NCBI GenBank assembly: GCA_003194525.1
Contig: NBIV01000064.1
Location: 186,001 to 250,000 of the forward strand
Origin: Gracilariopsis chorda
Taxonomy: Eukaryota; Rhodophyta; Florideophyceae; Gracilariales; Gracilariaceae
Direction: 5' to 3'
Length of the DNA stretch: 64,000 bases
Shown here: piece by piece, positions 16,441 through 60,907 of the stretch
How the letters are laid out: each line of letters begins with the position of its first letter
Position numbering within the stretch: position 1 is the first letter of the stretch
Notes under the pieces: generated by a model
The model's input: the letters and a program-made list of their open reading frames with translations, nothing else
What the model was told of the DNA's origin: nothing
The model's database searches: none
Program-made: the position numbers and the translations under genes

Positions 16441-19400
16441 CTTTTCCTTGCAAACAACTCTAAAGTTATTTGCACATCGTTTATGTCACCGTTAAAAACC
16501 AAAATATCAGCAAAAACCATATAGAATGAAAAACTGCATAGTTAGGAAAAGGTTTAGCAATCTAATACTTCTCGAAGTTCCAAATAGTGTTTTCAAGAAT
16601 AGATAATCTGGATAAAACGCATAGAAACAAAAACATTGGTCAACAAATGTTCAAAAGTTATTGTAGTACGCACAAAACAGAAAGTTGATATAAGCTTTCT
16701 CGGTTAGCAGCTTTTGTCATTATGTCAGCCGGTTGGGAATCAGTTCTGATCTCAACTATTTGCAGCATTCCAGACTTCACTAGGTCTTTGACATGATGGT
16801 ATTTTAGAGAAATATGTTTGTTTCTCTCAGACGTTTTCGAATTCTTTGCGATAGAGTTTGCCGTAGAACTGTCTGTATAGATACAGACGGGATACATTCC
16901 GATAGGCTCTTCTTGCAGAATTTAGCAATGATGAAGCTCCTAAAATAGTCTTCGGATCCAAGTCACTAACCTAGCGGAATACGATAAATCAACTTATTCA
17001 GCTTTTCCCGAAGACAAAGCCACGATTGTCTGTTTTTTGCTAGTCCATAGGATTGGAGCATCTTTGACTTTAATCAGTACTCCCGTCGTTGACTTCCTTG
17101 TCTTTCGGCATCCTGCCAAGTCCGCATCGCAAAAACCTTCCAAAGGTGATAAAATGGTTGCGGAAAAGTGCATAAAAAGGTTCTTTGTTCCCTTTAAGTA
17201 TCTAAGCACTCGCTTTGCCAAAGCTAAGTGCCTTAAACAAGGTTTATGAACCTGTCTCGCCAGCATTGAAGCTGCAAACATGACGTCTGGTCTAGACGCG
17301 ACGGCTAGATACATCATTTGTCCAACCAATTTCCGATATTTCCGGTGGAGTGGAGGAGGCAGCTTCCGTTCCTGTTTGTTTGTACCCATGATAGAGTAGC
17401 CATGAGGCAACGGTGTTTGCACAGGTTTTGCGTTTCCGAGGTTATATTCTCGTAGCAGCTTATCCACATACGTTTCCTGACTAACCTTGATGCCATGTCT
17501 GTCCCGACTGAGATGAAGTCCTACGAATGATTTGGCTTCTCCCAATAGTTTCACTTGAAAAAGTCTCTTCATTTCGGCTTTAAAGTCGTCCAGAAGAGAC
17601 CTCGAGTCAGACAACATCAGTATGTCGTCCACGACGATGACGAGAATCAGTATCCCACTGCTTGATCGATATATATAGAGACGGTAGTCCGTTTTCGATT
17701 GAAGGAATTGCAGTGTGATCAACGTCGTGTGTAGAAACGATCCCCAGATCTGTCCAGCCTGCTTTGCCCCGTATAATGATTTCAGCAGTAGACATACTTT
17801 TCCCGGAACGTATGAAGTTCCAGACGAGTTCTGGGGTTGTTCCATGATCAATGGTTCATCGAGGTCGCCGTATAGGTAGGCGTTGCTGATATCCATTGTT
17901 TCCAGCAAAAGGTCTTGCGCAGCAGCCTTTGCCAATGCCAACCTTATTGTCTCAAGTCTTGCGACTGGGGCATAAAGGTTTTCAGGGTCTTAATCGATGT
18001 ACGGTTTCTGCATGTCCCCTCGCGCTACACAACGTGCCTTAGGAAGGATATCCAAAGGTTTTGCGCTGAGTTGTTTTGCCGTAAATGTCCAAAGGAATGG
18101 GATTGGATTCATTCCTGGTTTCCTGTCAATGAGCTTCCATGTTTTGCGTTCGATGAGAGCATCATACTCTCGGTCGATTGCGTCTGCCCATTCCGGTGTT
18201 TTCCTTGCTTGGGAAAATGTCTTTGGTACTTTGTCCAGCTCACTGTTATTTGTTGAACGAGTGTGTGCCACTAGACAATGTTCCAAAGCTGAGTCCAAGT
18301 GTTCTTCATCCACTTCGTCATTACGTTCTTCTGCTTCTGTCCTGCCCGAGGACGAGAAGTCGAGAAGCTCGTTGATGGAAGGCAGTCTTTTCTTGGCCAC
18401 CTTAAAGTCCCTTTGCCTCACCATGATTACTTTCTTCTGGGAAGGTATGTATACCCGATACAATGATTTAAAGCTCTCCATTCCAACGAAGTGGCCGTAG
18501 ATGGCGCGTGGGAGCATCTTCTTGTTGGGAATGGTTTCCGACCTGTATATAAAGGCGTGGCCATCTTGTCCAAACTTCAGTAATGTATCGAACGATGGAT
18601 TTTGTCCAACCCACTCTTTATAGGGGATTCTCATGTCGAGACATGAGTTTGGAAGGCGGTTACGCAGCCAGTTTGCATGCGATATCGCTTCTTCCCATAG
18701 TTCGAGTGGTAATTTTGATGCAAAGAGCAGAGTTCTGGCCGTTTTCCATAAGTCTTGGATAATTTTCTCCGCTGCGCCGTTAGACTCATGTGCATGCGGA
18801 GGAGTGTACTCCAAGATGATCCCGTTATCTAATGCATATTGGATAAACTCATTAGACCTATTCTCACCTGCTCCGTCGAGGCGAACGCGGTACAAACGGT
18901 TTTGGGGTTGTTCGTTTTCTGCGAGAGCCTTGTACCAACGTATTGACTGCGTGAATTGGTCTTTCTTAGTCAGGAAGTATATTGATGATGCCCTTGTATT
19001 GTCGTCAATTAGTACCTGCATGTACTTTGATCCTTGTAACGAAGGTGAGGATATTGGGCCTGTGAGGTCTGTGTGTGTCAAAGCCAAGGGGTGGTTTGCC
19101 ACTGAATGCGAGCGTTGGGTTGGAGATCGCCTCGATTTTGCTTCAATGCATGGACTGCAATGTGTGTTTTCGATTTCCATCTGCGGCAGGTTAGAGATTC
19201 CTGAAGATTGCGGGATTGTGCGAAGCAACCTGTCCTTGCCGGGGTGTCCGAGTTTTTCATGCCAGTCAATTGATGCGTTTCCGGGCATGACTTGTGCGGT
19301 TTGGGCTGTCGGTGGAGCGATCGGCTTTGGTAGTGGGTACAAACCGCTTTTAGCTTTGCAGCAGTGAAGTTCTTTCCCGGTTTTGACGTCACTTAGGACA

Positions 19401-19495
19401 AATCCATGAAAGGAGTCTTCGTTGGAAAAGGAAACGTTTGCGTGCTGTGATAAAAACGTATAATGAAATAAGGTTTGAGTCAAACGAAGGTGTGG

Positions 19496-20309
19496 TGCAA
19501 TGCCCCAAAGGGGAAAAACACCGAAAGACGTTCGGGATCTTCCTCTCACGAGGTGAACCCAGTTGGGTAGAGCCCTCCCAGAGGTGTCACGGCGAAGCCG
19601 GTTTGTAAGACCAGGGACACCTGTCGCGACTCGCGCAGGGAGGTGAAGGCGAAGAATCGGTATCCGCGTGAGCGGGGTGTGATCCTCAGTAGAGGTATGT
19701 TTCCACGTAAGTGGGGGTGTGTGAGCGGATGCGCACACGAGGGCCGCGGATAGCGGGAGGTGCTACACGAAAAAGGGGAAAAGGAAGGGCGAAGAGGAGG
19801 AAAAGAGGACGAAGTGAGTCGCAAGAGCGACGAGGACGAACGGCGATGCCAGTAACAATATCCCTATACAGGGCGAAACACCAATGCAATTGGAATATTA
19901 TGACTCCCAGTGATGGGTCCCTCTAGATGTGCAAGGGGGTTAAATGTCCCGTGGTTCACGGCGTTTCCCTCCAAGGAGGAGTAGAGTACGCGCGCAAGCG
20001 GCAACAACTAGAGCCAATTACCCAGGTTGGGGTCCCTTGTTGGGGAAGGTTTACTGGTGCGACGGCAGTGCGCCGTCGCACAAAGTACTAGTTTCCCAGA
20101 AATGGGTGTGAAAATAATAAATATTATTAACTAAAATACTCCACGTTTCGTGGCAACATCCACTACTGTGGCCAACCGCCAATTGACCCAAAACCGTGTC
20201 CCACGTGTCCATATCCACCATAGTGGGGCGTAGTTCATATACACACTACACAACCGATAATATCGGGAAAGCGTTCAAGTACCAAGAATCCCTCCCTGAG
20301 GGCGTTGCA
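19496..20309 (+). repeat. 0.8-kb repeat copy 1, nested in the copia element
   Basis: 814 bp beginning TGCAATGCCC and ending GGGCGTTGCA, so its ends are imperfect inverted repeats. A diverged copy lies in the opposite direction at 25659-26443. Shared blocks include CACCGAAAGACGTTCG, CCCAGTTGGGTAGAG, GTCGCGACTTGCGCAGGGAGG-like and CAAGTACCAAGAATCCCTC. No coding signature was found. It could be a solo LTR (TG...CA) or a non-autonomous TIR element; no target duplication could be identified with confidence. Confidence 0.75.
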
Positions 20310-22199
20310 CTACAGAATGTGTGTGCTTCGCAGGTAACCTTATTCCGTCTCCTACTGGCAGCATAATTGTCCCTGCTCCAACTTTTTCCGATTGTCTGTC
20401 GCATGTTCGGACGGACTCATTTTCCACAGGCTCATAATCCCAGAAGAGATTTCTGTCGTTTACAAACACATGAGTCGCTCCACAACCCAGGCAGGTTGTA
20501 GTTCCATTGTTCACTGAACAATATTTAGCTTCGGCAATAGCTAAGAAACCTCGGGGCTTAGGGTTGCGGTTGTAGTGACTTGAGGGTTTTTTTGTTCCTC
20601 CGTTGGAGTCCCAGTTCCTGTTTCCAGTACTAGATGGTTGGTGTTTGTGTTTGGTTGCTTGGGGACCCCTGCCATGGTTTTGGTTGGGGTTGTTTTCTTT
20701 TCTCAACTGGCATTCGGAACGAATGTGACCTAGTTTTCCACAATGCCAACATCTTACGGCTTTAGACTTCCTTTTCTTCACAGAGGAAATTAAGGATGTC
20801 TTTCTCGCAACCATGTAGGGTTGCTGTGTATTTGGTGGTGGAGGTGCGGAGCTTGTTTGGTTTCTCGAGTCCCTGTGTTTGCGTCTGTCCATTTCTGATA
20901 TTATCAAAGAAGCAACTTGGTCATCTTCTATATCGTTGGCGTCTGCGAGTAGCGTGATAGCCATAAGAGAGTCTGGTAGAGTTCTGAGTAAGCAAGCAGT
21001 TCTCTCCTTATCGTTGAGAGCATCTCCTAGGCGTGCCAGTTCTAGAAAGATTGATTTCATTTCGTGGAGATGTTCAAGGATATTTCCATCGTCCTTGAAA
21101 ACGAGATTGTTCAGGCGCTGTCGAAGGTTCATCTTGGTTTGGATGTTATCCTTCTTGTATGTGCCCTCCAGTTTCCTCCAGAAGTCCAACGCAGAACATT
21201 GTTCGCGTTCCAGTAATTCAGAAACGGCAACTACTTGTTGCGTTCCAAGGTTTTGAACAAGAATCGAACGAGCTTTTCGATCCGCATCATCCCATCGGCG
21301 GCGGGCTTGGGCTGAGCGTTCGCCTTCCAATGGTATGGGTTCGGTTAAGACGAAAAGAACTTGGTCAACATTCATCAGGTCCCTTTTGTAAATCCTCCAT
21401 GTGTAATAATCCGAGGATCCTTTAAGGCGGGGAATAGTGCGCTTGCCTTTTTCTCTTTCCTCACTCATGTTGATGTCTTGTGAGTAGAGAAAGAGTGAAT
21501 TGACCTCTGGTTATCGAGGTACATTTTGTTAGTCTTCTTTCCAGCGGGCACACTGACAGGAGATACTACCTCCGCTACCCTAAGGGTTCAACCCCTGGAA
21601 CCGGGTCACACTCTCCCGGTGAGTTGCTTTGATGTGCCTGCTAAGCTTCCTGCGGAAAGAAGCAAAGTGCCTTGAATCCTTACGAAGCTTCCAAGGGAGG
21701 TTACTAACTGAAGATAAGTTTTCACCAGTTGACCCCTTCTGGCCTCTTGCAGGAATGCTGCACGGCGTTCTGCGGAGCGAGAGGTTGAAGGAGATAGTAC
21801 AAAACTCCACTGGCGTATGCGGTAGCTTGGGCCGAACGACGACACATCGTGTCACCACAAGCAGACAGAGCCTCCCCCAGCAGAGCCGGTTATCCGGACG
21901 GATGTCAAATCTAGCAGATTACTTCAAGTGCCCACTCGATTCCCGTCCTGGTACTCAGCTTGCAAGCTACCACGCCTTTTTCCGTTCGGCGTAAAGAGAT
22001 GAGAAGAAGAAGAAAAAGAAATACCACAAAGATGCACGATTAACGAAGCTGGTTATCAGCGAGAAGAGAAAGGTTGTAGGTTGATGCTTCCGTGGGTCAA
22101 AGGAATGGTTCGATACAGAGCGTTGCGGAGCGCCGGTTGAAGGTTGGTCAGCGGTTGTCGAGGGGAGAGGCTGCGGGGAGGGTTGAGCGAGTGCTACCA

Positions 22200-22406
22200 T
22201 GTGAAGGGTGAAGGGGGCTCCCTCCGGCTGGTGGTGCTCAGGTCAGCGCCGCCGGCCGCTCTTTATATTCCTACAATTCTAATTAAAATGTACGTAATTA
22301 GGAGAGGTCTGCATTTGTAATCAAGAGAGTTGGACAAGATTACAAATGCAACTGACACTGGATTACAGCAGCCGATAGTGCAACCGTACAATTGCGTGTT
22401 CTCACA
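22200..22406 (-). repeat. Copia 5' LTR
   Basis: 207 bp pair of the LTR at 16233-16440, and the upstream LTR in the element's orientation. Followed inward by the primer-binding site. Confidence 0.96.
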
Positions 22407-40135: not shown

Positions 40136-41617
40136 CTATCATACCCCAGTATTTGTTTTCTAAGTTCAGCGGAGTTACAAACGAATTAGGTTCCGCATTT
40201 TTTCAAGCAAACGCCTTTGAGGACGCTCAAAGAGTGTTTAGAGTTGTTCCCCCTTAGATATAGGCCTAATCTTTTCAGCATAGAACGAATGAGACATACC
40301 CATAAGGTGAGTCCTGGTGACACAGCTGCAGAGTACTACTCTTTCCTTCAGTCTCAGATGCGTTATTTCTGCACTTATGAGCACATTACACATGATCTAT
40401 TTGGGATAGAAGTTTCGCACGAAGATATTAGAATGGAATTGGTTTTGATCGTTGATAAAAAGTTAGGCAAGATGGCCCTGAACTGCCGTTCGTGGCTTCG
40501 ACAAACGCAAACAGTTACAGGTAGGCCCTGAAAATATTTCTAAATCGCATAGAAATTTACCAATCTCCAGTCTTTCAGAACGTTTGAAAAGCTCATAACT
40601 TGGATGACCATTGCAGTTATCTTTCGTAGTACTCTTCATGGCGATAATATCGCTTGACACCGTGCTAAACGCAATTTTCAACACTAAAAACGAGTTTAAT
40701 ACAGGGGACCTAGCACAATCATACCATAATAAGATGACGCAAAACCATTCTCAGACATTCCAACGAAACAGCGACGCATGTAACGTTCTAATAACCATGC
40801 ACTTCAAATCAATCCGATGGTCACAATGTACACCAAAATAGTTAGATATATGTAGATATCTTAAAAATGACTGACAGCAAGAAGTCTCCGATGTGCTGTC
40901 GTAATCGTACCAGACAAAAAATCTGGTGATCAAAGCATTGCCCGCACCACTGTAAAATAAAAGCTCCTTGCTTTATGTGGCGTACGCAGGCTTGGGTGAG
41001 ATGGAGCAAAATTCAAGAGAAAAACAAGATAAAAGAGATGCATTGTACCTCGTCGGTGTTTTCGGAATGCTAGTTTGACAATCAAAAGGGAAAGAATTGA
41101 AATGGACGGATATCGACTCTTAAAACCCACTTTTGAATGAATCAATTTCCATCAAAATATTTTCACACATTCAACACTGCTAGTTTTTTGAAAGTATAAA
41201 CTAGTAAAGCACTTCACATTTCCAAGTTATTTCGGACCAAAAACCGAGTCCGGACTCCGCGAAGTGGAGTCCAGACTCCACTACTACATACCTTCACATG
41301 TGAACGTGAGATTGAAAATCTGACCGGACCACCGGAACTGCCCCTTCAAATAGAAGGATAGGATGCTCAGATAAATACATATATAGGAAATACATTAGAG
41401 TTTACAAAACATGATAGCCCTCGCTATCCTTCACTCGTTGTCAGTGTCTGCGGCCTTGCATAGCATGCACCAGTCCACGAGCCAGCGCAAAACGCTCGGC
41501 ATCACCTGCTCCACTTCATCCCCGTGCGCCATAATAATTACGCTCCCGCATTTCGCTCTCCAACAACCCCTTTGCTCCCCTTTCTCCTTCCAATCCTTCA
41601 ACTCTCCTTCCCGCACC
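40136..41617. other. Spacer between the MULE and the GC-rich transposase
   Basis: No supported gene. Near 41250-41285 is a hairpin (GGACTCC ... GGAGTCC). The composition changes from AT-rich to C-rich at about 41.4 kb, where the next gene's leader begins. Confidence 0.4.
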
Positions 41618-44134
41618 ATGTTCCCCTGTTGCTACCCTCGCTGCTCCTTCCACGGCCGCACCACATACTCTCTTCAGAGTCACCAACGCAGGTGCCCCCA
41701 TCGCCTCACCGCCAACAAGCGTTCCTCCTCCACAGCCACCGCTCCAGTTCAGTTCCCTCCCAGGACCAAGAAGCGAAAATCCGTTCCCAACCTCTCCATC
41801 AATTCTCCTCCCCTTCCCTCTCACCGTCCTTCCGACAACGTCCCCCTCGCCGATGATGATCCATATGAACTTCAACAGGCTTCCCTCTCTCTTCAAACCC
41901 AAGACGCTTACCATATCGCAAGTCACGCCATCGGCTCCGTCTCCTCCTCAAACTCCCTTCTCCCGCCCCCTTCTCGTTCCCCTTCCCCTCTCGCCGACAA
42001 CCCTCATCTCGAACAACTCGTCCTCTACATCTCCTCCATCGCATCCTCCGTCAGCACCCGCAAAGCAGACGAGCTCATCTCCATCCTCAACCATCCAGAC
42101 TTCTCCAAGTCCTCCTTCCAGACCTCCATCTCCTCCGCCAGGCAGTGCCTCGCACTGCAAGAGGACCTCTTCAAGCAACGCATCAGCTCCAACGGCTTCA
42201 TCCCTTCCACCATCACAGACAAGCGCAACACCTTCTCCGCAACCCTCTTCCAGAAACGTGCCATCGACGTCCTCAAGCAACAACTCGCACTCGCACACCT
42301 CAACAACACCTTCTTCCAGCCGGTATCTCAATCTTCCTCATCTTCTTCGTCTTCTGGTCACCCGGCTTTCGCACATCCCATGGCTGCAGCCCTCGGAAAG
42401 AAAGTCGTCCCAGCCATCAAACAGGAAATTATGCAGTCCCCCGTCGATGACATCGTCTGGCACACCCCCCAGGAAACCGGTATCGAATCATTCATCGGCC
42501 TCGTCCAGCTCTACTCGGACAAGTCCGCAACCTCCCTGAAAAGCTCCTCCGTCAATTCCTACCCCCTCCACGTCACGTTTCTCAACTTCTCCGATGCCCT
42601 CCGCCGAAAGTGTATATCCGAAAATCTCACACTCCTCGGATACCTTCCAACCTCCTTCTCCCCGTTTACCGCCTTCGACGACGGCGGCGACTACGTCCCG
42701 AAATCATCCTCCAACATCCCACGCGAGACCAAAATGAACCTCATTCAGCGCGCCATCTCTACCATCCTCAACCCACTCCTCACCTCTGCGCTCCCAGGAT
42801 TCTCCTTCCGTGACGCTCACGGTGTCCTCCGCCACTGCCACCCCATCCTCGCCAGCTATTGCGCAGACATCCCCGAAGCAAAGGACATCCTCGCCATCTC
42901 CCACGGAACACGGCCGCAGCACCCTTGCCCGAGATGCACCGTCCCTCGGGAACACCTCTTCCTCAATACAGATCCCATCCCCTTCCGCACACAACTCCAA
43001 ACTCGAACCAATCGCAGACAGCACACCTGCCTTCTCCGCGAATCCGAGGAAGCGCAACTCGCCCGGAAACCAAAAGTGGCACGCACCAAAAAAGAAGAGG
43101 CAGCAACAGCACTTCATTCTCTCTCCCTCGCAAAGTACACTTCTCTCTTCGAATCATACCCCATCTTCAACATCACTCCGCTTCTCTCTTCTTACAACAT
43201 CTTCGCCTTCGAGCCACTGCATAACTTCCACCTCGGCGTCTCTAAACTCATCAAAGCCACCGCAATCGAACGTCTCCGATCCGATTCCCTCTTCTCCATT
43301 GTCGGTCCCAGCAAATCCAAGAGATCCTTCCAATCCATCCGCACCTCCATCCTCAAACACTCCAACTCCATTCTTGCGGCCATCGAAAAAGATTCCCCTG
43401 CAACTGGACTCCACATAGACTTCTCCACCTCCGACAACGCTCAAGCTCTTAACGGCTTCTTCACCACAGAAGGACTCCGTGGAATGCTCGAAGCAAAAGA
43501 TTACCGCGCACTCGACATGGTATTCCCCTTCATCGGAGCATTCTTCGACAGATGCTGCAACGAAATCGACTCCTCCCCAATCACTTCCGTCTTCACCAAG
43601 TACACAGATCTCGTTCTCTACGCCATGCGATACAACTCCACTTCCGAATGGACCGAAGACTCTCTCAAATCACTCGAACGACAGATCAGATCCTTCAAAC
43701 TCACAGCCACCACCGTCCTCGGACCCTACCACTCTTCGCACCTCGGTACCCTCAAGTTCCATCTCCTCGATCACATCGTCGACGACATACGTAGATACGG
43801 AGGTCTGCACTTCAACGACGCAGGCATATTCGAACATGCCCACGTCCTCTTCAAATCTCACTACTCCAAGACATCCAAACATTCTCCAATTCCTCATGGT
43901 GCCGTTCCCTCACTCTCTCCCATGCCACCCCAATTATGTTCTCCAGAGCAAGCGGGAGATACTCACCAAACAACTTTGAAAACAATAACTGCCGTTTTCC
44001 TCCACGGCCCACATTCGTGTCCAACGCAGTCAAAACACATCCGATCCAAGCATCCAAGCGTGCCAAATGCATCACAGTTCCATCCACATAATCTGTCTTC
44101 CCTTCGCCTCCCGGTACCACCTCATATCCCATAA
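41618..44134 (+). CDS. Zinc-finger transposase-like protein (CACTA/Plavaka-type suspected)
   Basis: An 838-residue ORF, much more GC- and C-rich than the flanking transposon debris. It opens with a zinc-finger-like block MFPCCYPRCSFHGRTTYSLQ ... SHQRRC, then a Ser/Pro-rich linker. A central region follows with a Cys-x2-Cys knuckle in HGTRPQHPCPRCTVPREHLF, then FEPLHNFHLGVSKLIKATAI, and a tail with RRYGGLHFNDAGIFEHAHVL. An N-terminal C2H2-like finger, a central CxxC 'PRC' block and a His-rich strand are reminiscent of Tnp2/Plavaka (CMC) transposases; this is inference. The ORF is unbroken. The ATG at 41618 follows a C-rich leader; an in-frame ATG at 41411 would add 69 residues with no motif. 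The last 90 residues may be out of frame, since the opposite strand is open there. Confidence 0.6.
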   Translation: MFPCCYPRCSFHGRTTYSLQSHQRRCPHRLTANKRSSSTATAPVQFPPRTKKRKSVPNLSINSPPLPSHRPSDNVPLADDDPYELQQASLSLQTQDAYHIASHAIGSVSSSNSLLPPPSRSPSPLADNPHLEQLVLYISSIASSVSTRKADELISILNHPDFSKSSFQTSISSARQCLALQEDLFKQRISSNGFIPSTITDKRNTFSATLFQKRAIDVLKQQLALAHLNNTFFQPVSQSSSSSSSSGHPAFAHPMAAALGKKVVPAIKQEIMQSPVDDIVWHTPQETGIESFIGLVQLYSDKSATSLKSSSVNSYPLHVTFLNFSDALRRKCISENLTLLGYLPTSFSPFTAFDDGGDYVPKSSSNIPRETKMNLIQRAISTILNPLLTSALPGFSFRDAHGVLRHCHPILASYCADIPEAKDILAISHGTRPQHPCPRCTVPREHLFLNTDPIPFRTQLQTRTNRRQHTCLLRESEEAQLARKPKVARTKKEEAATALHSLSLAKYTSLFESYPIFNITPLLSSYNIFAFEPLHNFHLGVSKLIKATAIERLRSDSLFSIVGPSKSKRSFQSIRTSILKHSNSILAAIEKDSPATGLHIDFSTSDNAQALNGFFTTEGLRGMLEAKDYRALDMVFPFIGAFFDRCCNEIDSSPITSVFTKYTDLVLYAMRYNSTSEWTEDSLKSLERQIRSFKLTATTVLGPYHSSHLGTLKFHLLDHIVDDIRRYGGLHFNDAGIFEHAHVLFKSHYSKTSKHSPIPHGAVPSLSPMPPQLCSPEQAGDTHQTTLKTITAVFLHGPHSCPTQSKHIRSKHPSVPNASQFHPHNLSSLRLPVPPHIP

Positions 44135-44408
44135 ACTCTGCCAGCACTTCTACCGCAGCTCCGTTCTTAAAGTACATGTCCTCCCCACCAAAGTCCCTCA
44201 ACCTTCGAGCAACTTGAAATCCAGAATATGTAAGATCGTCAATCGCACTCATTCTCCATGCACATAAGATTCGGCTCTTCTCTACCTCCTTTCCCATTAA
44301 CTTGCTTCTCGCTTCCTCTAACTGCTTCTTCAATTCCACATCAAGCTCCGTCCCCTCCTGAGGTCTCACACGTCTTGCTATCAAGTCATACCCAAGTAGC
44401 GAAAACAA
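43851..44408 (-). CDS. Unrecognised ORF downstream of the methyltransferase-SET gene
   Basis: Up to 185 residues on the minus strand with no ATG at its 5' end; it overlaps the tail of the methyltransferase-SET gene by 28 bp in another frame and the last 280 bp of the plus-strand transposase ORF. The sequence is well mixed and looks coding (SAIDDLTYSGFQVARRLRDF, then EVLAEFMGYEVVPGGEGKTD). Most likely it is the 3' part of the methyltransferase-SET gene after a frameshift or small intron, or a second exon. No domain recognised. Confidence 0.45.
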   Translation of the reverse strand: MFSLLGYDLIARRVRPQEGTELDVELKKQLEEARSKLMGKEVEKSRILCAWRMSAIDDLTYSGFQVARRLRDFGGEDMYFKNGAAVEVLAEFMGYEVVPGGEGKTDYVDGTVMHLARLDAWIGCVLTALDTNVGRGGKRQLLFSKLFGEYLPLALENIIGVAWERVRERHHEELENVWMSWSSEI

Positions 44409-46168
44409 CTTTTCCCGTGCCGCCCTAGGCCAGGTGAACGTTTCATCCGCACGTTAGCCTCACGCTTTTGCACAAGGCCATCTACCGTAGCATCTAAGTC
44501 CTTATCGCCTTCGACATACTTAGGGTCGTTAATATACCCTGCAACACAAAACGGAGCTGGAACAACCCAAAGAATCGGGTTGGTTTGTTTTCCATGGTTC
44601 AGTGTTCTCCGATGAGGTAGTGCAGAGAACTGATGCCCATGAACATCCACCTCCACCGCATATTTTCGAAAGCGATCCTTCGTCACACCCATAACTCCGT
44701 CCCCGTAGGTCTTGTGCACTTCTTTACGGTTCGTCAGATCATGATACACGAGTGTCCCATAGAAGTAGCACACTACCTCCCCTACAGCAATTCGACGAGT
44801 TGCAAACACTCCAACACCAGCGTTATCGTGGCGAATAGTAGACTTGCTGATTCGTAGTCCATAATGCACAGCTTCCATTGCCAGCAGCGAGTTCATGTTC
44901 TCCAGATTCATCCTACCCTGCAGCACGCTAGGCCATTGATCGAAGGTCCTGCTCTTACCCAATTTGGCTACCTCTTCACTTCTCCACAGCGTCGACAGGA
45001 ACTGGACGACGTGTGGGGGAAGCATCTGGTACGGAGAAAAGCCATTGACTGCCTTCCATGACAAGGTATGCCTCAATCTGCCCATTGGAAATGCGATGAC
45101 AACAGTATGGGCCATCTTCCTGAGCTCTTGGTTCTTCTCAAGATTGGTGTTTCCCTCCCGGATTATAGAAGCAAAACGAACAATAGCAGCATGCTTTGCG
45201 TGTTCAAAGCAAGCTTTATCGTCTTCACATCCTACAAATATCCGGTGCTTCGGCAGTTCCATGCATGCCATCGCTGTAGAGAACGTCCCCGCAAAGAGGT
45301 CAACCACTAGGTCTCCTGGCTGACTAAACCTGCAAATGAGTTCCTTCAGCAATGCCCTACACTTCTGTTCCGGTCGCACCTTTTTCCTCGTAGTGATTCT
45401 CTCCGAGTTTGTCACATTCCATAGCAGAGTTTCGCCATAAGACATAGGCGGCACCTGGTCTATGATTGCGTGATATGCCGGGTAGCGTGAAGGGATAAAA
45501 TTAAAGTTCTCATAGTTCACCATTCTGTGCTGTTGGGAATACGGGACCCCAGAGCGCACTGCATGTACGGCATACTCCGACGTCTGGTACAGCCGACAGC
45601 TCCGCCTTCCCGGATTACCCATCGAGTTCCCCATGGATCGTACGAACTGGAGGGGTTGTTCGTCCACGACAAAAGAAAAACGAGTTGTGCCAGAGTCATC
45701 TGTGTACGTAACACTCCGCAGCACCTCCCGCCACTTCTGTATCTGATCCCACGAGCAGAACAATATAACATGCCCACCGGGACGTAGCAACTTTGAAATT
45801 CTTTTCCCTGCCCGGGCCATGGTCTTCTCGGTGAGAACATCATGACCACTGTTCTCCCGATTACGCTCCGCACGAGTCCCATATGGGGGATCCGAAAGCA
45901 CGAACTGTACCCTTCCTTCAATGGATAGTTCGCTGTCCCCGGACTTGTTGTCGTCGACTTCGACAAGGTCTTGGAAACTGCAGTTGTGAAGACGGAAGCT
46001 GCGGGACATCTGCCTCTCACAGTACTCGTACGACATCAACTGATCTAAAGTCTTCGGATACGGTGGAGGTTGAACACCAGTCTCCTTCACGCTGTACGTC
46101 AGTCTCTGAGACAATGTCGTTGTCTGCAGACCAGTAGTAGCTCTTGGAGCAGCCACACTCTCCACCAC
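44381..46168 (-). CDS. DNA amino-methyltransferase fused to a SET-like region
   Basis: 595 codons in one open frame. Residues 93-96 are DPPY (motif IV of N6-adenine/N4-cytosine DNA methyltransferases) in FVLSDPPYGTRAERN. Motif I, PGDLVVDLFAGTFSTAMAC, lies later at 285-302, with the usual lead-in RPEQKCRALLKELI (265-278). The order IV then I is that of the beta class (MT N4/N6, Pfam PF01555-like). From about 436 a SET-like segment begins: HDNAGVGVFATRRIAVGEVV (448-467), then CVAGYINDPKYVEGD (541-555) and ANV (571-573), the places where SET domains bind SAM and substrate. The closing GEEL/DY motif is missing, so the SET part is cut short or continues in 43851-44408. There is no ATG near 46168; the frame begins beside an AG (46198-46199) that could be a splice acceptor, so an upstream exon is likely. 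Predicted role: DNA and/or histone methylation. Confidence 0.72.
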   Translation of the reverse strand: MVESVAAPRATTGLQTTTLSQRLTYSVKETGVQPPPYPKTLDQLMSYEYCERQMSRSFRLHNCSFQDLVEVDDNKSGDSELSIEGRVQFVLSDPPYGTRAERNRENSGHDVLTEKTMARAGKRISKLLRPGGHVILFCSWDQIQKWREVLRSVTYTDDSGTTRFSFVVDEQPLQFVRSMGNSMGNPGRRSCRLYQTSEYAVHAVRSGVPYSQQHRMVNYENFNFIPSRYPAYHAIIDQVPPMSYGETLLWNVTNSERITTRKKVRPEQKCRALLKELICRFSQPGDLVVDLFAGTFSTAMACMELPKHRIFVGCEDDKACFEHAKHAAIVRFASIIREGNTNLEKNQELRKMAHTVVIAFPMGRLRHTLSWKAVNGFSPYQMLPPHVVQFLSTLWRSEEVAKLGKSRTFDQWPSVLQGRMNLENMNSLLAMEAVHYGLRISKSTIRHDNAGVGVFATRRIAVGEVVCYFYGTLVYHDLTNRKEVHKTYGDGVMGVTKDRFRKYAVEVDVHGHQFSALPHRRTLNHGKQTNPILWVVPAPFCVAGYINDPKYVEGDKDLDATVDGLVQKREANVRMKRSPGLGRHGKSCFRYLGMT

Positions 46169-46191
46169 CTCTTCGACCTCATTATCCCCAC

Positions 46192-46330
46192 CCAGCTGTT
46201 CAGAAAATCAAAAAATTAGTGTAAAATGAACCATGCATCTTCCGCCCATGACCTACTAGGTCGTACCGCAGATGTCCGTTCATTCCAGACACTAATTTTA
46301 AACTAATTTTTTGATTTTCGGAACTGCTGG
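46192..46330. repeat. 139-bp foldback (MITE-like) element
   Basis: Arms of about 36 bp: the left CCAGCTGTTCAGAAAATC... pairs with the right ...GATTTTCGGAACTGCTGG with about three mismatches, continuing through AAAAAATTAGT. It sits directly upstream of the methyltransferase-SET frame. Confidence 0.7.
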
Positions 46331-46339
46331 CCGCCACGT

Positions 46340-46425
46340 GGTGGAGGTCCGTGGACCGGAGTGTCGTGGCGCTTCATCAGGCGCCTGATGAAGCGCCACG
46401 ACACTCCGGTCCACGGACCTCCACC
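46340..46425. repeat. Perfect 86-bp palindrome
   Basis: Every base from 46340 to 46382 pairs with 46425 to 46383 with no spacer (centre CAGGCGCCTG). Checked base by base. Ten bases separate it from the 139-bp foldback. Confidence 0.95.
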
Positions 46426-46836
46426 CCCAAAAACAAACTTCGAATACCAATGCAAAATCATTACAGGTGCATCGCAGCGCCGCCTAAATGAACTTAATGG
46501 TTGTCAGGAAACGTCTTCAATACCATGTATTTCAAAAGTATAGATGCTCACGTCGCCTGAACCGAGCAGACGTGATCACGAGAGCATCTTACGCGACTGG
46601 GTGCCACGACAACTTGATCACGCGAACGCTTCAAGATTGCAGCGTGGTTCTCGGCCGGAATAAGAGTTCTACGAAGACGAAGAAGCATTGTCCCAGGAAA
46701 TCCGCTTCGCTGCGAAGGCCTGACATAGAAATGCCGACTACGCGAGGAAAAGCGAAAAGCATGGGCTTGGTGCGCATATGCGTTTCTGTTTTCATTAGCC
46801 ATTGGTGCTCTTTATGGGGTATTGAAACCGCTTTTG

Positions 46837-47592
46837 ATGCATTATGTGGTAGGGGATGTTCGAATGTCTCCGAAGATGTTGATTGTGGTAATTCTGGAGA
46901 CTGTTTTGCATTTGTTTATCTTCGATATGGTGTTTGCATTGCATAGAAGGCATTTTGGTTCATTGGCATACGTACCTTTGCGGGACAGCCAGCGAATGGC
47001 ACGGATTTCTGTGATTCGAAACAGACTACTTGGATTCACGATGGCAGGTCTTTTGCCGTTGAATGTTTGTATTTTTGTTGGCTATCACTTCTTGGAAGCG
47101 CCAATTTCGATTGGAATGGAACTTAGGACTGGTGCTCTTGCATTTTTCACTGGTGGTTTCATGTTTGGGGGTATGTCGTATGTGGTTGAACGGCTAACGA
47201 TGTTTTTTGTGACTAGGGACAGCATTAACAATGAGAGAGAGCTCCCATATGTGCAGAGAGGTAGTGTTGGGCTGATTTTGGATGTGTGCAGGACCGTATA
47301 CGGTGGTTTGAATAAGGTGCTTGGGTTTAGAGATGGTGTGGCTACTATGAGGCTCTATATCGGAAGGGTGTTCCCTGTTGTGTTTACCTACTTGATTTTC
47401 ACGTTCCTGAGCGATACTTCTTTGCACAAGGTAAGGGGACTCGCGCCTGTAGTGGAGAATACTATCTTTTTCGTGCTGCTTCTTTTGGGTATGGCTGTGG
47501 ATATGGACTTGGAGTACCATTTTCGAAGGTATGTTGCGAATCTAGGAGAGCACTGTAGGCCTGTTGGTTCTCGTTTTGAACCATTTCTTTAG
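46837..47592 (+). CDS. Multi-pass membrane protein, unrecognised
   Basis: 251 residues from the first in-frame ATG. Hydrophobic segments: MLIVVILETVLHLFIF, LLGFTMAGLLPLNVCIFVGY, ALAFFTGGFMFGGMSYVV, VFPVVFTYLIFTFL and TIFFVLLLLGMAVDM, so about five passes. The frame stays open upstream to 46729 and reads YAFLFSLAIGALYGVL, a further membrane-like segment without ATG, so the true N-terminus probably lies in an upstream exon. A TAG at 46726-46728 could be the 3' splice site. I recognise no family. Confidence 0.6.
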   Translation: MHYVVGDVRMSPKMLIVVILETVLHLFIFDMVFALHRRHFGSLAYVPLRDSQRMARISVIRNRLLGFTMAGLLPLNVCIFVGYHFLEAPISIGMELRTGALAFFTGGFMFGGMSYVVERLTMFFVTRDSINNERELPYVQRGSVGLILDVCRTVYGGLNKVLGFRDGVATMRLYIGRVFPVVFTYLIFTFLSDTSLHKVRGLAPVVENTIFFVLLLLGMAVDMDLEYHFRRYVANLGEHCRPVGSRFEPFL

Positions 47593-47834
47593 ACACGTTC
47601 GTAGTTCTACCTGTACATACCTAAGTTAGTGTGATAGAGTTGTAAACTGAAGGAAGTGTTAAACTAATGTCGTTCTAAATTTTTCGTTTCAGATTATTGG
47701 TGGGACACGACTCGGTGGGAAATGGCGCGAAAACGGGCGAGTGAAAAAATGCGGTTGGATAAGTACCTGGGGAGTGCTCGCTTGGTGGTTGGGTTAGGAA
47801 CGGGAGCGCCGTTGTGGTGGGGCGTGTAGTAGCC
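47593..47834. other. Intergenic spacer
   Basis: About 240 bp; the last 100 bp (promoter or leader of the next gene) are G-rich. Nothing else seen. Confidence 0.4.
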
Positions 47835-48095
47835 ATGTCTAGCGAAGACGTGAATGATGAGGAGCTACTGGCGTTGTTGGATAAAGCGGAGAAGAGGGAG
47901 GTCCCCGAGACGCCTCCAAGGACGAAGAAGGAGGAGGAAGGGAAGGGTGATGGTGAAGAGGGCAAGGGAAGGAACGTTGTTGGGTTCGGGGAGCTTGGGG
48001 TTGGGACGATGATGGGAGGGGATGGGGGGAGGGAAGTGAGGGCGAGGGAAGTCGAGGAGGACGGGGAGGAGGAGGAGGTGGGGCGGGGCGAATGA
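47835..48095 (+). CDS. Small acidic protein, overlaps next ORF by ATGA
   Basis: 86 residues from MSSEDVNDEELLALLDKAEK, then PETPPRTKKEEEGKGDGEEG, ending in a Glu-rich tail. Its stop TGA (48093-48095) overlaps the ATG (48092-48094) of the next ORF as ATGA. The N-terminal helix and charge pattern look like a real protein. Because the two ORFs abut with no gap, they may be one gene joined by a frameshift, an alternative start or a very small intron. Confidence 0.45.
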   Translation: MSSEDVNDEELLALLDKAEKREVPETPPRTKKEEEGKGDGEEGKGRNVVGFGELGVGTMMGGDGGREVRAREVEEDGEEEEVGRGE

Positions 48096-48592
48096 GTCGG
48101 TTTTACCGCGATGTGAAGAAACTGGTGAGGAGCGTGGGCGGAGGGCTTAAGGAGCGTTTGGATGAGTGTATCGAGGAGGTTGTGGTGGAGATGGGGGGGA
48201 TGGTGCTGAGTTCTTCAGAGGAAGGGGTGCCTATGGGTGCTGTGGCTGAGCTGCGTAGGAGGGCAAGGGAGGCTGGGGTGTGGGCGGAAATGCATGTCGA
48301 TGGGGTTGTGGCGTGTGTGGGTGAGGAGCTGAGGAGACTGTGGAAGGAGAACGAGGAGATGCGTAGACGGGTTTTGGTGTTGGAGAAGCAACTTTTACTG
48401 GTTGGTAGGGCTGTGCATCTAATCGAGGAAATGCAGAAGAAGGTGTGTGATGCGGAAGGGAGAGCTGTTGTCGGGGAAGGCACTCCTGTTACTCCCGGTC
48501 GAGGGGCTGTAAGGAAGAGGTTGGAGGAGAAGGACGACGAAGGAATAGAAGGTGAGAGTCGGTTGAAGAGGAGGCGTGGAATGAGAGGATAA
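48092..48592 (+). CDS. Coiled-coil protein, unrecognised
   Basis: 166 residues from MSRFYRDVKKLVRSVGGGLK. Residues about 60-115 are a long amphipathic helix (AELRRRAREAGVWAEMHVDG ... ELRRLWKENEEMRRRVLVLE) that should form a coiled coil. The C-terminus is basic with TPVTPGRG and ends RLKRRRGMRG, a possible nuclear localisation signal. G-rich codon use like the preceding ORF supports a shared gene. No known family recognised. Confidence 0.5.
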   Translation: MSRFYRDVKKLVRSVGGGLKERLDECIEEVVVEMGGMVLSSSEEGVPMGAVAELRRRAREAGVWAEMHVDGVVACVGEELRRLWKENEEMRRRVLVLEKQLLLVGRAVHLIEEMQKKVCDAEGRAVVGEGTPVTPGRGAVRKRLEEKDDEGIEGESRLKRRRGMRG

Positions 48593-49168
48593 GGAGAAGA
48601 AGGATGGTAAGGATGGTAAGGGAGGTTTTATGTTTGGTGTTCAAGAGTGTGGGTGCCACCCAGTGAGGCTGAGAGAACAGTTGGGCTCCAAACTTTGACA
48701 ATTTGAAGTTTGAAATCCACGAGATGGAAATATGTAAGTTAATTTGGGTTGCATGGGGGTGGGGCCGCTGGCCGCTACGCGGCCAGCGCCATTTCGAGCC
48801 CTCTAACTAGCGTTTAGTGAGCAAAGAACTTGCTCTAAACTTGAAACTAGCGAAGTGCGGTACTAGGGACGGATGACAATAGAAAATATGAAAGAGTGAT
48901 TTGCGAAAAATTTTTTTTTTTTGCTTGCCAACCACCACGAACTAGCAGAATCTAGCGTTTTCGTAGTTTTTTTGAGTGATTGCCTAACAAACTTGCGATC
49001 TAGCACCCTTATCTAGCATTCCGAGAACACCGACGCTCTAATGGACAAATCGGGGGACTGCGTGAGTTATTGTTACTTATGCTGATTTTAGTGGCCAAGC
49101 CAACGACTAAAATCATACTGATTAGCGTCAATCGCAGACAAAATCAAAAATGCAACCTCTTTTTGTAA
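48593..49168. other. Spacer with hairpin and CTAGC cluster
   Basis: No gene. A hairpin CGCTGGCCGC-TAC-GCGGCCAGCG lies near 48763-48790. Between about 48806 and 49020 the word CTAGC recurs six times at irregular spacing. A T12 run is near 48911. Confidence 0.45.
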
Positions 49169-52639: not shown

Positions 52640-53923
52640 GAGTCTGAAATACTAAAAAAAACATGGAAGCGTTTTCTTCTTACAGGGACGAGCGGGGACA
52701 AGGAAGACCTATCTCCTATTTTTGCTGAGAGATATTGTTGAGCACGAAGGCCTATTGGGGCAGATGACAGCCACGAAAGGTATTGCTGCTGCACTATATG
52801 AAGGCGGAAGACCTTTGTGTAGTTTGCTTGGATTGGGTGTCGATGAAAACAAAGATTCGCAAAGTAGAGAGCGTCGAACACTTTCCAAGTACGGACCACG
52901 ATCACAGAGAGCAGAATTAATACAGAAGACTGTTTTGCTGGTACTTGATGAAGCTTCAATGTGCCAGAAAATTCTCTTCGAGATTGCGCACACCCTACTG
53001 GAGGACCTAAGAAACTCTACGAAAGACTTTAGAGGCATGGTCTTAGCTATGGCAGGCAACTATATTCAACTGCTTCCAGTCGTTCCAAGAACAAGAACAG
53101 TATCCGAAAGGGATGGAACAATTCTTTTTGTTCCAGTGAGTCTCCTACGGGAGCTTCCATGGTACTCTTGCGAGCTTTGGGACAGAAGAGTCAAAGTTCT
53201 TCGACTTACAGAACAGGTTCGTCAACAAGATGATACAGTTTTTGCAAAACGTTTGCTCAGTCTTGTCGTGGGGCGTTTATAGCATCTGCGGGGCTTCCAA
53301 TCATGTCTACGTATGATGTACACGAAGCATACAAGTTGCTGTGGAAATGGTTTACAACACGGAAGAAAGAAGATTTCAAGCTCAACACATTGATTGTTGC
53401 GCCAATAAATCAACTAGTGGAGGAACACTACCAGAACGCATTGGAGTATTTCCCAGGAAGTATGTTTGACTTAAAGTCTGCAACGACGATGGTTCCAAAT
53501 TGAGAGCCAACAGGTGAAAGCTTTCACCCAAAAAGTATCATTGGACCTGAACTGACGTATAATTACGCTCCAACTGGAGTCTCGCAACATCATTTGAAAC
53601 TGAAGTTAAATGTTTCTGTTATGGTGATTCAAAATTTACTTCATCCGCACTTGCTGAATGGAAAGATGTTTATTGTTACCAGCGTTTCTCGCAGAGTGAT
53701 TCGACTTTCGGGCATTGACAAACATCAGAAAATTCACCGAAGCTTTTTGCTGCACCGCATTGAATTTGTATTTGAGTTTGGAGATGTGAAAATCAAACAA
53801 CGGCAGTGTCTGATCAGATTGGCATTTGCAGCAACTGCGCATAAAGCTCAAGGACAAAAATTGAAGAAAATGATAGTTGAATTTCGGACAAAATTGTTTT
53901 TCGCCTGGTCAGGTCTATGTTGA
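52640..53923 (+). pseudogene. Helitron Pif1-like helicase remnant
   Basis: The block GLLGQMTATKGIAAALYEGG follows the (broken) Walker A region. LVLDEASMCQKILFEIAHTL is Walker B with its neighbouring Ser/Met. LTEQVRQQDDTVFAKRLLSL matches the RLTxNMR...F motif. The end LAFAATAHKAQGQKLKKMIV fits the C-terminal helicase motif. Pif1-family helicase of Helitrons; several frame breaks. Confidence 0.8.
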
Positions 53924-55738: not shown

Positions 55739-57429
55739 ATGGCCAACGAAATGCAAACCACCATCGACTTTGACAGTGACACTATACTTTCATCGCCGCA
55801 AGTCTCAGACACCGAATTATTTCTGGCCGAGTGTAATGAAGAACAATTAGTAACCATGCAAGAGCATATCGATGATTGCTTTGAAATCACTCCCTTAGTA
55901 CCGGCCGATGTTGACAAGCTTGATAGCATTCCTTATTGCAAAAAATGGGCTTCGCATTCAGGACTACATATTCTGAAGAAGGGTCTAGTTCAACAAGCGC
56001 TGGATAGCGAGCGACGAGAAACTAAGCTTATGAACTTATTTCTCAACTCTTCTTTCATTGAGTGTATTCGGGCATGGACAAGTAAGGTCCTCGCCAGGAG
56101 AGGCAAGAAGTGCCTTAATACGACCGAACTGAAAGCCTTTATTGGTTTGGAGATAGCCACATCATTGTCAAGGATGAACAGAATACAGGATTACTGGAGT
56201 ACGAAGATGTTTGTGGGTCAGGTTGATTTTCAACGGACTATGTCTCGTAACCGTTACCAAGATATCCGAAGTTCCTTGCGCCTTTATTGTTCTTATGAGC
56301 ACAGTTCAGCTGTTACGGACCCTCTGTGGCATTCTAGGATCATGATTGAACATTTCTTGAAAAAGCAACTTCTATTGCAGTACCCGTTGGTGTCACAACC
56401 TTGGACGAGAACACAATACGTTGCAAGGGTAGGACAGCTGCTCGATCATATATTAAATCGAAACCTGTGCGCTTTGGCATCCGATTGTACGTTGTCGCGG
56501 CTTGGAAATATGCTTATATAAACACGCTGTGGGACAACGGATCAGGAAACAAAACTGGAGTGGTGCCGGCGATTGCATACACTACATTGTTCCGCACCCT
56601 GAGGGGTGTGTTTCATGGTAACTTGGATGGAAAGTTGATAAAAAAATCCAGTGCTTCTGCGCTATGGTGTAGTATGTTGACACATCAATGTCAGGCTACA
56701 ATAACAGGGGACCAAGAAAGGCTTGTCGTGATGGATAATTTTTATACGAGGCATACATTCGCCAAGCAATTGAAAAGTATGACCGACAAGAAACTGAAGG
56801 TACTGGGCACTGTGCGGCTGAACAACATTGATAATATCAACCGAGCAGCTGTTAAAGAGGCTCTTGAGCACCTAAAGGAGAGACCAAGAGGATCCTGGGT
56901 TTTGTGTCAAGCTTATGAGAGATCCAGTGAGCCATATGTCGAGCCCACGGTGGCGCAGTCGTCTGGATACATTGCATTCAAAGACAGGAAAGTCGTCATA
57001 TTCTACACAAACGACCTTGCATGCACACCGAACTCTAGAATTGTGGAGTCCAACAATCATGCCATTGAATGCGTAAATGGAATGGCCCCACTTGAGCGAT
57101 GGGTCGGAGAAGAAGCCTTACATCGAACTACATTTGCGGTTCCGGCGGTCATTGTGGCTTATAACATGTTTAGGAATGGCGTCGACCGTTTTGATCAGCT
57201 GCGGTCAACGAATGCTATCGTGCGAAAGGAGCAACGTGTTCCAATGAGTGTATTTACCTTCCTCATTGATGCTAGTATACTAAATGGGTTTGCCATTCTA
57301 CAGGCATCTTCAAACGGGAACTTTGGATGCACGGTGCATGATTTCAAACGCAAGTTAGCTGAACAAATTGCTTCTCCACTAATAGATTTTCGAACGGCGA
57401 AGATTGCTATTCATTCACCGCTTTCCTAA
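55739..57429 (+). pseudogene. piggyBac transposase, one frameshift
   Basis: First frame (55739-56521): MANEMQTTIDFDSDTILSSP, then FIGLEIATSLSRMNRIQDYW and TMSRNRYQDIRSSLRLY, the piggyBac N-terminal layout. The second frame (56401-57429) begins MDENTIRCKGRTAARSYIKS, has VVMDNFYTRHTFAKQL with the second catalytic Asp, and YNMFRNGVDRFDQLRSTNAI with the third (usual YNxxMGGVDxxDQ). The frames overlap at 56401-56521, so a single frameshift separates them. All three catalytic aspartates appear present. About 550 residues when both parts are counted, close to family length. Confidence 0.88.
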
Positions 57430-58072: not shown

Positions 58073-58706
58073 TTCCTTTAAATCGTTACTTGTCTCAAAA
58101 TATCCATGAATCGCTGTGATTGTTCAGTTTCTAAAGGTTAAAATCGTAGCTCGCACGGAAATTGAGCGTTAACAAGAACATACCTTGGTTTGAGTTTTTC
58201 TCTAAGTCTTCATGGGTCTCATTATCTCTTGACAAGGGTTTGCTCATTCTTGTTTCGCTGCGTTGCAAAAGGGCAGTGCGCTGTCGTTGATATGAAAGAT
58301 CTTGTAGCCGGGGTAGTTGTAATTCCAAACGTAGTGGTGGCCGTGAACAAGAACCCATTTCAAGTGTGCTAAGACGGTACAAGCAGAGTGCAGTGAAGTT
58401 GCACGTGAAAATCTCACACCTCTGAATACTCGTACTTGATGAATGAAAATATCTTAGATTCAAGCTATTATATTGGCTGACTGGTTTGGCTTAGGCCCTT
58501 TCTACATATGGACATGGACAATTCGACACCGAGACACTCATTCGCGGGAAATTGTCCTTTGGACATTTTTTAGAAAGGTGCCCATTTCCCGCCATAGTAT
58601 AGAAACACGACCAGACATTATCAGTCTCCACGCCAGCAGCTCTTCCAAGTCGCACGCCCACCTCGAGACCAGTACCGTCGCAGTTCTTTCGCAAGCTCTT
58701 CTTTCA

Positions 58707-59432
58707 ATGACCTACAATTTTCAATTCTCAGCTCCACCACAGCCTGTAATTTGCAACCAGCACTCTGCTCCGGCCATCCAAACGGCTACTGACGACAACA
58801 ACGTTCCCAATGCAGAACGTAGTCACGTCAATCAACATGCTGTCGCTCTAACTGGGAAAGAAGCAGAAGCGGATGCTAATTCCAACTCACCGACAAAACC
58901 AAATTACGATAGCGACACTGTTATTTTATTGCTTTCAATGATGAAAAAAGCTGGGTACGGTAATCGTAAGCAACAAAAGAAAAGTTTGAAAGACGTTTTC
59001 TCGGATGCTGTCAAGCTAGCTGAGCAAAGTCATGGCATCAAACGCACTCCCAAAGGATGGCAGAAAAAGTTTACGAGAATCAAGCAAGAATATTCTTCTT
59101 TCATTTCGAAATTGAAACAGTCTGGTCGAGATGGAGATGACGAAGATCTCTTCAACACTCCGGAATGCTTTGGAGAAATGCATGAACTGGAGAAGGGCAA
59201 GGCAAGATATGATCCTCCGGCACAATATTCTACAGACGAAGGTAGCAGTGCTCTTGAACGTCCAGCCACGAGCACGCGGAAACGCCAAAAGATGTCTCGA
59301 GATGAGTTGCTTTCTGCATTTATACAGAAACAAGAAGAAACGAATGCCAGTTTGATTTCAGAGCTCAGAAAAGGAAACGAGGAAAGGGAGAAAACGCGCA
59401 GTGTTTTGGAACGTTTGGTGGAAAAGATCTAG
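58707..59432 (+). CDS. Harbinger Myb/SANT-like accessory protein
   Basis: 241 residues from the ATG at 58707 (MTYNFQFSAPPQPV). The middle carries a helical Myb/SANT/MADF-like region (DSDTVILLLSMMKKAGYGNR ... GIKRTPKGWQKKFTRIKQEY). The C-terminus is helical and charged (MSRDELLSAFIQKQEETNAS). In PIF/Harbinger elements the second protein binds the ends and brings the transposase into the nucleus. The frame is open further upstream but without ATG. Confidence 0.8.
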   Translation: MTYNFQFSAPPQPVICNQHSAPAIQTATDDNNVPNAERSHVNQHAVALTGKEAEADANSNSPTKPNYDSDTVILLLSMMKKAGYGNRKQQKKSLKDVFSDAVKLAEQSHGIKRTPKGWQKKFTRIKQEYSSFISKLKQSGRDGDDEDLFNTPECFGEMHELEKGKARYDPPAQYSTDEGSSALERPATSTRKRQKMSRDELLSAFIQKQEETNASLISELRKGNEEREKTRSVLERLVEKI

Positions 59433-59438
59433 ATCTTC

Positions 59439-60680
59439 TTACTGTTCATCAAGTGAGTTCGTAACGTAATAAAGAAGTGCATCTCGTTGCTTTTTTCCAG
59501 CGCTTTTTTCTGCGGTTACTACAGCATTCGGATCGTCATCATCATCGGCAGGCAAGTACGCTTCGTTGATATCCCCGCTATCGACACTCCAGTTGTGTAG
59601 TACCACACAGGCATATGTAAACAAAACGATATCATTCTCGTGGTGAAGCTTGATCCCCTCCTTTAACACCGAGAAACGTTGTTTTAGCATTCCGAATGCG
59701 CATTCCACCGGCTTCCGCGTCTTGCTGGCAATCTTATCCCACGTTCGAAGAACGGGGTTAGCGTTCTTTTCCGGTTCACTGCAAGTCTTCATCATATTTC
59801 TGTTGAGCTGGAAAGCACAATCACCAATCAAGTATGGTCTCACAAATACATTCGCTATCTTTAGATGCGGAATTTGAGCTCCAAGCCAAACACCCTTCTC
59901 TATATTCTTCTTTAACGTTGACTGTTCGTAAATAGTAGAGTTTCCTAATACCCCAGGCTTCCCAATATCCACGTACACAAACTTCCTATCTGCCGTCACC
60001 ACTGCAAATAAAACGATGCTTGGATACCCCTTATAGCATCTGTATTCGTAAAACTGCTCTTCTGGACAAGACAGCCATTTTATATGGGTCCCGTCTATGG
60101 CTACGACACAGTACGGGAGCCTGTTGATGCTCTCAAAGCCTTTCATGGCGAGCGCAACGTCGTTCTCCATAGTAGGAAATCGAACAGAGTCTTGGTAATT
60201 CTTCGTGATGGCATTCGAAATCATCGTAACGCTCAAGGAAACCGTGCTTGAGCCTATTACATGATGAGATGCTGCTTTTTCGCAGGTGCAACCAACAGCG
60301 TAAAGAAGAAATGCAGCCACTTTTAGTTCTGCAGGCAACGCTTTGTGAAATGTTGTGTTGTTCGCTTCTATATAAGGAAGCAATTCGTTTGATAAACGTT
60401 GAAATATGGTGTAGGAAACGCGAAAGAGGCTTCGCCAGGATGAGCTTCCAAGAAAATCTTGCGTGACTGCATAGTCAAAAAACCATGAAGGAGTGTTTCT
60501 GGACCGCTTACATGCCCGTCCGGGCATGCTACGTCTATTGTCAGTAGTGGAAAAAAGGCGCAGAGCGATTGAGTTAGTCGACAAAACTATTGCTGCTGCA
60601 ATGGGCTCTTGGACATCGTCATCGGCTGCTAGAATGGCTGCAATGGCCATGGCCAAGTGTCGACGGCGTTCGGTAGTCAT
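59439..60680 (-). CDS. PIF/Harbinger DDE transposase
   Basis: 413 residues from MTTERRRHLAMAIAAILAAD. N-terminal helical part (SSWRSLFRVSYTIFQRLSNE), then the DDE_Tnp_4 core with all three acids: VVAIDGTHIKWLSC (Asp), YLIGDCAFQL (Asp) and KPVECAFGMLKQRFSVL (Glu). Also GYPSIVLFAVVTADRKFVYV and CVVLHNW, all family blocks. It cuts and joins the element at TWA targets. An upstream in-frame GTG could extend it by 12 residues. Uninterrupted and of normal length, so probably functional. Confidence 0.93.
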   Translation of the reverse strand: MTTERRRHLAMAIAAILAADDDVQEPIAAAIVLSTNSIALRLFSTTDNRRSMPGRACKRSRNTPSWFFDYAVTQDFLGSSSWRSLFRVSYTIFQRLSNELLPYIEANNTTFHKALPAELKVAAFLLYAVGCTCEKAASHHVIGSSTVSLSVTMISNAITKNYQDSVRFPTMENDVALAMKGFESINRLPYCVVAIDGTHIKWLSCPEEQFYEYRCYKGYPSIVLFAVVTADRKFVYVDIGKPGVLGNSTIYEQSTLKKNIEKGVWLGAQIPHLKIANVFVRPYLIGDCAFQLNRNMMKTCSEPEKNANPVLRTWDKIASKTRKPVECAFGMLKQRFSVLKEGIKLHHENDIVLFTYACVVLHNWSVDSGDINEAYLPADDDDDPNAVVTAEKSAGKKQRDALLYYVTNSLDEQ

Positions 60681-60907
60681 GTTTGGGTGACGGGAGTGGC
60701 TATGATCATGGGTCACGAGTTGGGGTCGCTTTCAAGCGACCCCAAAATCAGGGGTATTTTGGACAGGAGAGCCTGTGTCCCATGCATGTCCTAAGAAATG
60801 GGAAATCCCCAGGATCAAGATTTTGGACGAAATGCACCGTGTCCTGGGGTAGTGTAGAAAGGGCCTTATATATATCGCCTATCGTTTTCTGGGAGCGAAA
60901 GGGTTAA

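Follow-up and report, generated by a model that had tools for sequence, protein, structure and literature searches.

The methyltransferase-SET gene at 44381-46168 on the reverse strand has, in our judgement, an even chance of being cargo of a cut-and-paste Plavaka/EnSpm-like DNA transposon of about 8 kb (41051-49035) in a eukaryotic genome. The elements backed by sequence are a DNA amino-methyltransferase, N-terminal SET homology, a convergent transposase, a pair of inverted repeats and a motif cluster at the right end. As the gene adjoins a Plavaka transposase inside terminal inverted repeats, a role as cargo of a transposon is more probable for it than one as an ordinary regulator of the host. 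Transposons with captured TET, SET and C5-methyltransferase genes are already known. If true, a bacterial-type amino-methyltransferase fused with a SET-like module and set next to a Plavaka transposase would be a novel way of countering host silencing; writers of 6mA or 4mC could plausibly reach eukaryotic genomes along such a route. Positions are those of the window, i.e., the whole 64-kb stretch of DNA that was analysed.

Methyltransferase and SET-like regions of the open frame

44381-46168 (-): methyltransferase-SET open frame, 595 codons; no stop from 46207 on, earliest in-frame ATG at 46036
45194-45910 (-): class-beta DNA amino-methyltransferase domain, residues 87-325; PF01555 E=1.3e-18, phrog_67 E=4.8e-23
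44579-44818 (-): N-terminal SET core, residues 451-530 (~80 residues); PF00856 below cut-off, 22.0 bits on a separate profile

A first-pass annotation had described one unbroken frame with the motifs DPPY (residues 93-96) and FAGT (residues 292-295). The frame is indeed open over 595 codons, compared with a longest open stretch of 343 codons in dinucleotide shuffles of 41051-49035 (n=100), and both motifs lie at these residues. The GTG start of the frame is a product of the bacterial code. Its first 44 codons contain no ATG, and the ATG at 46036 lies upstream of the methyltransferase motifs. Directly 5' of the frame is a MITE-like hairpin (46192-46330; 36-nt arms, 92% complementary), which may separate the frame from its true start.

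In the Pfam profile search PF01555 scored 68.2 bits, above the curated cut-off of 26.7, and DPPY precedes FAGT; the assignment to the beta class, likewise made at first pass, is thereby confirmed. As judged from its sequence, the methyltransferase half of the frame is certain. The order of catalytic before AdoMet motif (class beta) is common to the four phage and plasmid enzymes compared. Within FxGxG of the AdoMet motif, the second Gly is replaced by Phe in the protein encoded here. Among the matches listed, all 164 loci with a match have the first Gly, and the second position is occupied by Gly (138 loci), Ala (15), Phe (5) or other residues (6); the positions of DPPY were comparable in 44 of the 164 loci. 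Relatives in the PDB include DpnA-named enzymes and CcrM. Prokaryotic relatives share approximately 21-31% identity across most of the domain and more over short segments only, and no close donor was seen among the matches listed. Nor was a prokaryotic methyltransferase-SET fusion seen among them: the SET part and the C-terminal frame described below were unmatched at E<=0.01 in the 164 loci listed. The domain is predicted to be a bacterial/phage-type class-beta enzyme. Because its motif is DPPY, N6-adenine is more likely than N4-cytosine as the predicted target, given the motif usage stated in the available text of PMC8885841.

Behind the methyltransferase, an SET-like block, GVGVFATRRIAVGEVV, had been noted. 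The block is present, and PF00856 matches residues 451-530, albeit under its cut-off of 22.4 bits, which was missed both with the whole protein (17.4 bits) and with the fragment (20.2 bits). In a shuffle control of the SET part against Pfam, SET was matched in none of nine shuffles and some unrelated family at E<=10 in three. One of the nine reached E=0.0012 for an unrelated family, and Pfam alone is therefore insufficient to settle the presence of SET. A separate SET profile was made from 50 bacterial SET domains; as these were gathered via PF00856, it is not wholly independent. On this profile the N-terminal core, which bears GxGxFA, scored 22.0 bits versus 8.6 bits for the best shuffle, and none of 1000 shuffles (833 of which returned a score) reached 22.0. 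When the SET region was compared with the PDB, all 23 matches at E<=10 were SET lysine methyltransferases (one of them a cDNA named as similar; best E=0.013). Since the separate-profile score lies beyond the shuffles and the PDB matches are all SET enzymes, homology of the N-terminal SET core is taken as real at the sequence level.

The catalytic C-terminal SET segment (GEEL...Y, with the catalytic tyrosine) was not found in the open frame, where the respective sub-profiles did not exceed shuffles. LNHGKQTN aligns with NHSCxPN, the SET NHxC motif, with differences at the Ser and Cys positions. The block NDPKYVEGD...NV, which had also been attributed to SET, was not confirmed as such; in the alignments the NH motif falls on LNHGKQTN, which immediately precedes this block. 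Structure prediction of the SET part by unaided AlphaFold gave a pLDDT of 34.5, and this model was discarded. With 13 bacterial SET relatives aligned, a low-confidence model (pLDDT 53.8) was obtained; of its 248 structural matches, the 50 listed were without exception SET proteins, none of the matches reached E<=0.001, and the outcome is biased by the alignment.

We consider it very unlikely that the sequence following the methyltransferase is something other than SET, with a local resemblance only. Such an explanation would agree with the PF00856 score below cut-off, the shuffle at E=0.0012, C-terminal sub-profiles that do not beat shuffles and the failure of unaided structure prediction, whereas it conflicts with the absence of any comparable score among the 1000 shuffles, with the uniform PDB matches and, subject to its E-values and alignment bias, with the structural matches of the aligned model. 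The SET half of the 44381-46168 frame is, by homology, real but partial. The first-pass annotation had named a score for the methyltransferase part only as one result that would speak against a two-domain gene. What was found lies in between: SET scores, yet under the Pfam cut-off. Its dual-domain reading stands insofar as a methyltransferase and an SET-like region share one frame, but not for the writing of both DNA and histone marks, as the catalytic C-terminal SET segment was undetected.

44381-44453 (-): a switch of frame has to occur here; stops bound both frames
43851-44453 (-): putative C-terminal continuation in another frame, ~200 codons; codon-position composition like that of the main frame

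Frames were compared by codon-position composition; codon-usage scores trained on four genes of the window failed to separate them. The 43851-44453 frame has GC contents of 0.54/0.40/0.52 at codon positions 1/2/3 and a first-position purine content of 0.65, the corresponding values of the main frame being 0.54-0.58/0.39-0.42/0.52-0.57 and 0.57-0.61. At the end of the main frame, the final 29 codons (a small sample) diverge from the composition of the gene. Because the composition of the 43851-44453 frame is near that of the main frame while these last 29 codons depart from it, the protein probably continues in this frame for up to 200 residues. No known domain was found there (Pfam unmatched at E<=5, NCBIfam at E<=0.1); GTEL is present in this frame at a score not above shuffles, and the C-terminal SET segment was not detected with the sub-profiles. 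Given that the main frame stops in or just after SET and that composition shifts, the gene is probably longer than earlier described, and probably no single frame holds its SET region in full. The frame change may be due to (i) mutation; (ii) an assembly error; (iii) an intron; (iv) a programmed event. The 44381-46168 copy may be defective at its SET end.

A related explanation, which we consider unlikely, is that of a decayed relic, in which the methyltransferase-SET gene worked once and the present copy is dead and without function. The frame change at the SET end, the lack of an ATG in the first 44 codons and the hairpin just upstream would all be consistent with decay. However, the methyltransferase frame has remained open over 595 codons with coding composition kept, the transposase frame described below is also open, and the frame change could stem from an intron or from an error of assembly.

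Transposase and termini of the putative element

41051-49035 (no strand): putative Plavaka/EnSpm-like DNA transposon, 7985 bp; inverted repeats, CT/CT flanks, transposase inside
41051-41073 (+): left terminal inverted repeat, 23 nt; preceded by CT at 41049-41050
49013-49035 (-): right terminal inverted repeat, 23 nt; followed by CT at 49036-49037
48807-49017 (no strand): subterminal CTAGC cluster, six copies; six within 210 bp, while elsewhere in the window no 210-bp stretch has more than two
41411-44134 (+): Plavaka transposase ORF; PF18759 E=1.6e-21, 77.3 bits, cut-off 26.3
46822-47592 (+): internal ORF without assigned family, hydrophobic on inspection; Pfam unmatched at E<=1, PDB unmatched below E=0.47
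47814-48095 and 48092-48592 (+): internal ORFs without assigned family, charged on inspection; Pfam unmatched at E<=5

The Plavaka transposase ORF and the methyltransferase-SET gene are convergent (tail-to-tail). After approximately position 43940 the transposase frame looks non-coding, as seen from a shift in composition in its last 65 codons. The two terminal repeats match at 22 of 23 positions, compared with 19 of 23 in the best of 40 shuffled flank pairs, and, with up to three mismatches allowed, the 23-nt repeat was matched nowhere else in the window. CT is found on both flanks of the element, and Plavaka has a target-site duplication of 2-3 bp; for one copy, a 2-bp agreement is expected by chance in 1 of 16 cases. 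With low-complexity 5-mers excluded, only one 5-mer of the window was more strongly clustered than CTAGC. Two copies of the reverse complement, GCTAG, are found at the left end (41069 and 41179); taken alone, this pair is not exceptional. Provided that 41051-49035 are the true ends, the methyltransferase-SET gene lies inside the element. Neither the transposase nor the inverted repeats had been noted in the first-pass annotation of this gene.

Several observations count against a transposon. The termini, CGTCG..CGACG, mismatch those published for Plavaka (TGT..ACA or CATCA..TGATG) and EnSpm (CAC..GTG), as given in the available text of PMC12730594. A single copy is visible, two ORFs without assigned family lie inside, and other inverted repeats are present in the repeat-rich 64-kb window; the inverted repeat pair could come from two different elements. 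The gene might instead be a host chromatin gene, i.e., a laterally acquired methyltransferase joined to SET and used by the host, whose position beside or between transposon ends is due to chance. The atypical termini, the two further ORFs in the interval and the fact that a second copy was unseen in the 64-kb window would fit such a gene, and a beta-class enzyme with a chromatin domain recruited by its host has a precedent in N4CMT (PMC8885841). On the other hand, the tail-to-tail arrangement with the transposase, the location inside inverted repeats of a quality not given by shuffles and the subterminal CTAGC cluster speak against such a gene, and we regard a host gene as an improbable explanation.

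Scans of viral contigs with single sequences, the reach of which is close relatives only, returned no relative for the methyltransferase-SET protein in full, for its methyltransferase or SET part, for the C-terminal frame or for the transposase, and no match to the terminal repeat.

An 86-bp perfect palindrome (46340-46425; two 43-nt arms, zero spacer) is located just upstream of the methyltransferase-SET frame. As a candidate transposon end it was rejected, there being no matching partner near the left end.

Related systems and proposed mechanism

According to the available text of PMC12730594, captured TET genes are carried by fungal Plavaka and other elements and SET genes by HarbingerS and MuDR; DNMT genes are carried by retrotransposons, as described in the accessible part of PMC5890265. 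The putative element was compared with five systems: (i) fungal Plavaka and EnSpm elements with TET/JBP (PMC12730594) likewise have a Plavaka-type transposase beside a captured epigenetic enzyme and are thought to escape silencing in this way, but their enzyme is a dioxygenase and their termini differ, whereas a DNA amino-methyltransferase with SET is found here; (ii) HarbingerS and MuDR of oomycetes (PMC12730594) are also DNA transposons with an SET methyltransferase gene, but belong to other superfamilies, and a DNA methyltransferase is not mentioned in the text available; (iii) retrotransposons of Symbiodinium and charophytes (PMC5890265) share with the putative element the carriage of a DNA methyltransferase, but are retroelements with C5-cytosine enzymes and, in the part of the source at hand, without SET; (iv) N4CMT of bdelloid rotifers (PMC8885841) is similar in being a eukaryotic fusion of a class-beta bacterial amino-methyltransferase with a chromatin domain, but it is a host gene with SPPY and a C-terminal chromodomain (a reader), as opposed to DPPY and an SET-like module beside a transposase; (v) SETMAR resembles it in joining an SET domain with a DNA-transposon protein, but SET is there fused to the transposase itself, in the description available without a DNA methyltransferase. 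No chromodomain was among the Pfam matches of the main or the overlapping frame of the gene studied here. A published fusion of a DNA amino-methyltransferase with SET, or a transposon carrying one, was not found among the results listed from the literature searched, which left out most subscription papers and Repbase.

If the gene is cargo of a Plavaka/EnSpm-like transposon, the methyltransferase-SET protein would be made from the element, and the encoded methyltransferase would methylate the element's own DNA. The SET-like module would act on, or dock to, chromatin. By analogy with the systems above, the element might then stay expressed or escape host silencing; alternatively, methylation might time the binding of transposase. 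The accessible part of PMC12695648 ties 6mA to transcriptionally permissive chromatin across eukaryotes, for MT-A70 enzymes, which are of a different class. In the most far-reaching version, the element would carry a dual writer in a single polypeptide, combining a DNA amino-methyltransferase with an SET lysine methyltransferase, and would impose its own permissive chromatin, countering silencing at two layers of the epigenome at once; this we consider decidedly doubtful.

Other elements in the window

Several further mobile elements were recognized. A copia-type retrotransposon with RVT_2, gag and integrase is located at 16994-21468; a 194-bp direct repeat (16247-16440 and 22213-22406, 96%) is probably its LTR pair. 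A PIF1-like helicase fragment (52656-53282, E=4.9e-29) is perhaps of Helitron origin. At 55739-57429 two overlapping ORFs match the two ends of DDE_Tnp_1_7 and possibly represent a frame-broken piggyBac-like transposase. The window also holds DDE_3 and IS4-like elements, as well as a PIF/Harbinger-like DDE_Tnp_4 transposase (59439-60716, E=3.1e-22) that adjoins an ORF without Pfam match (58473-59432).
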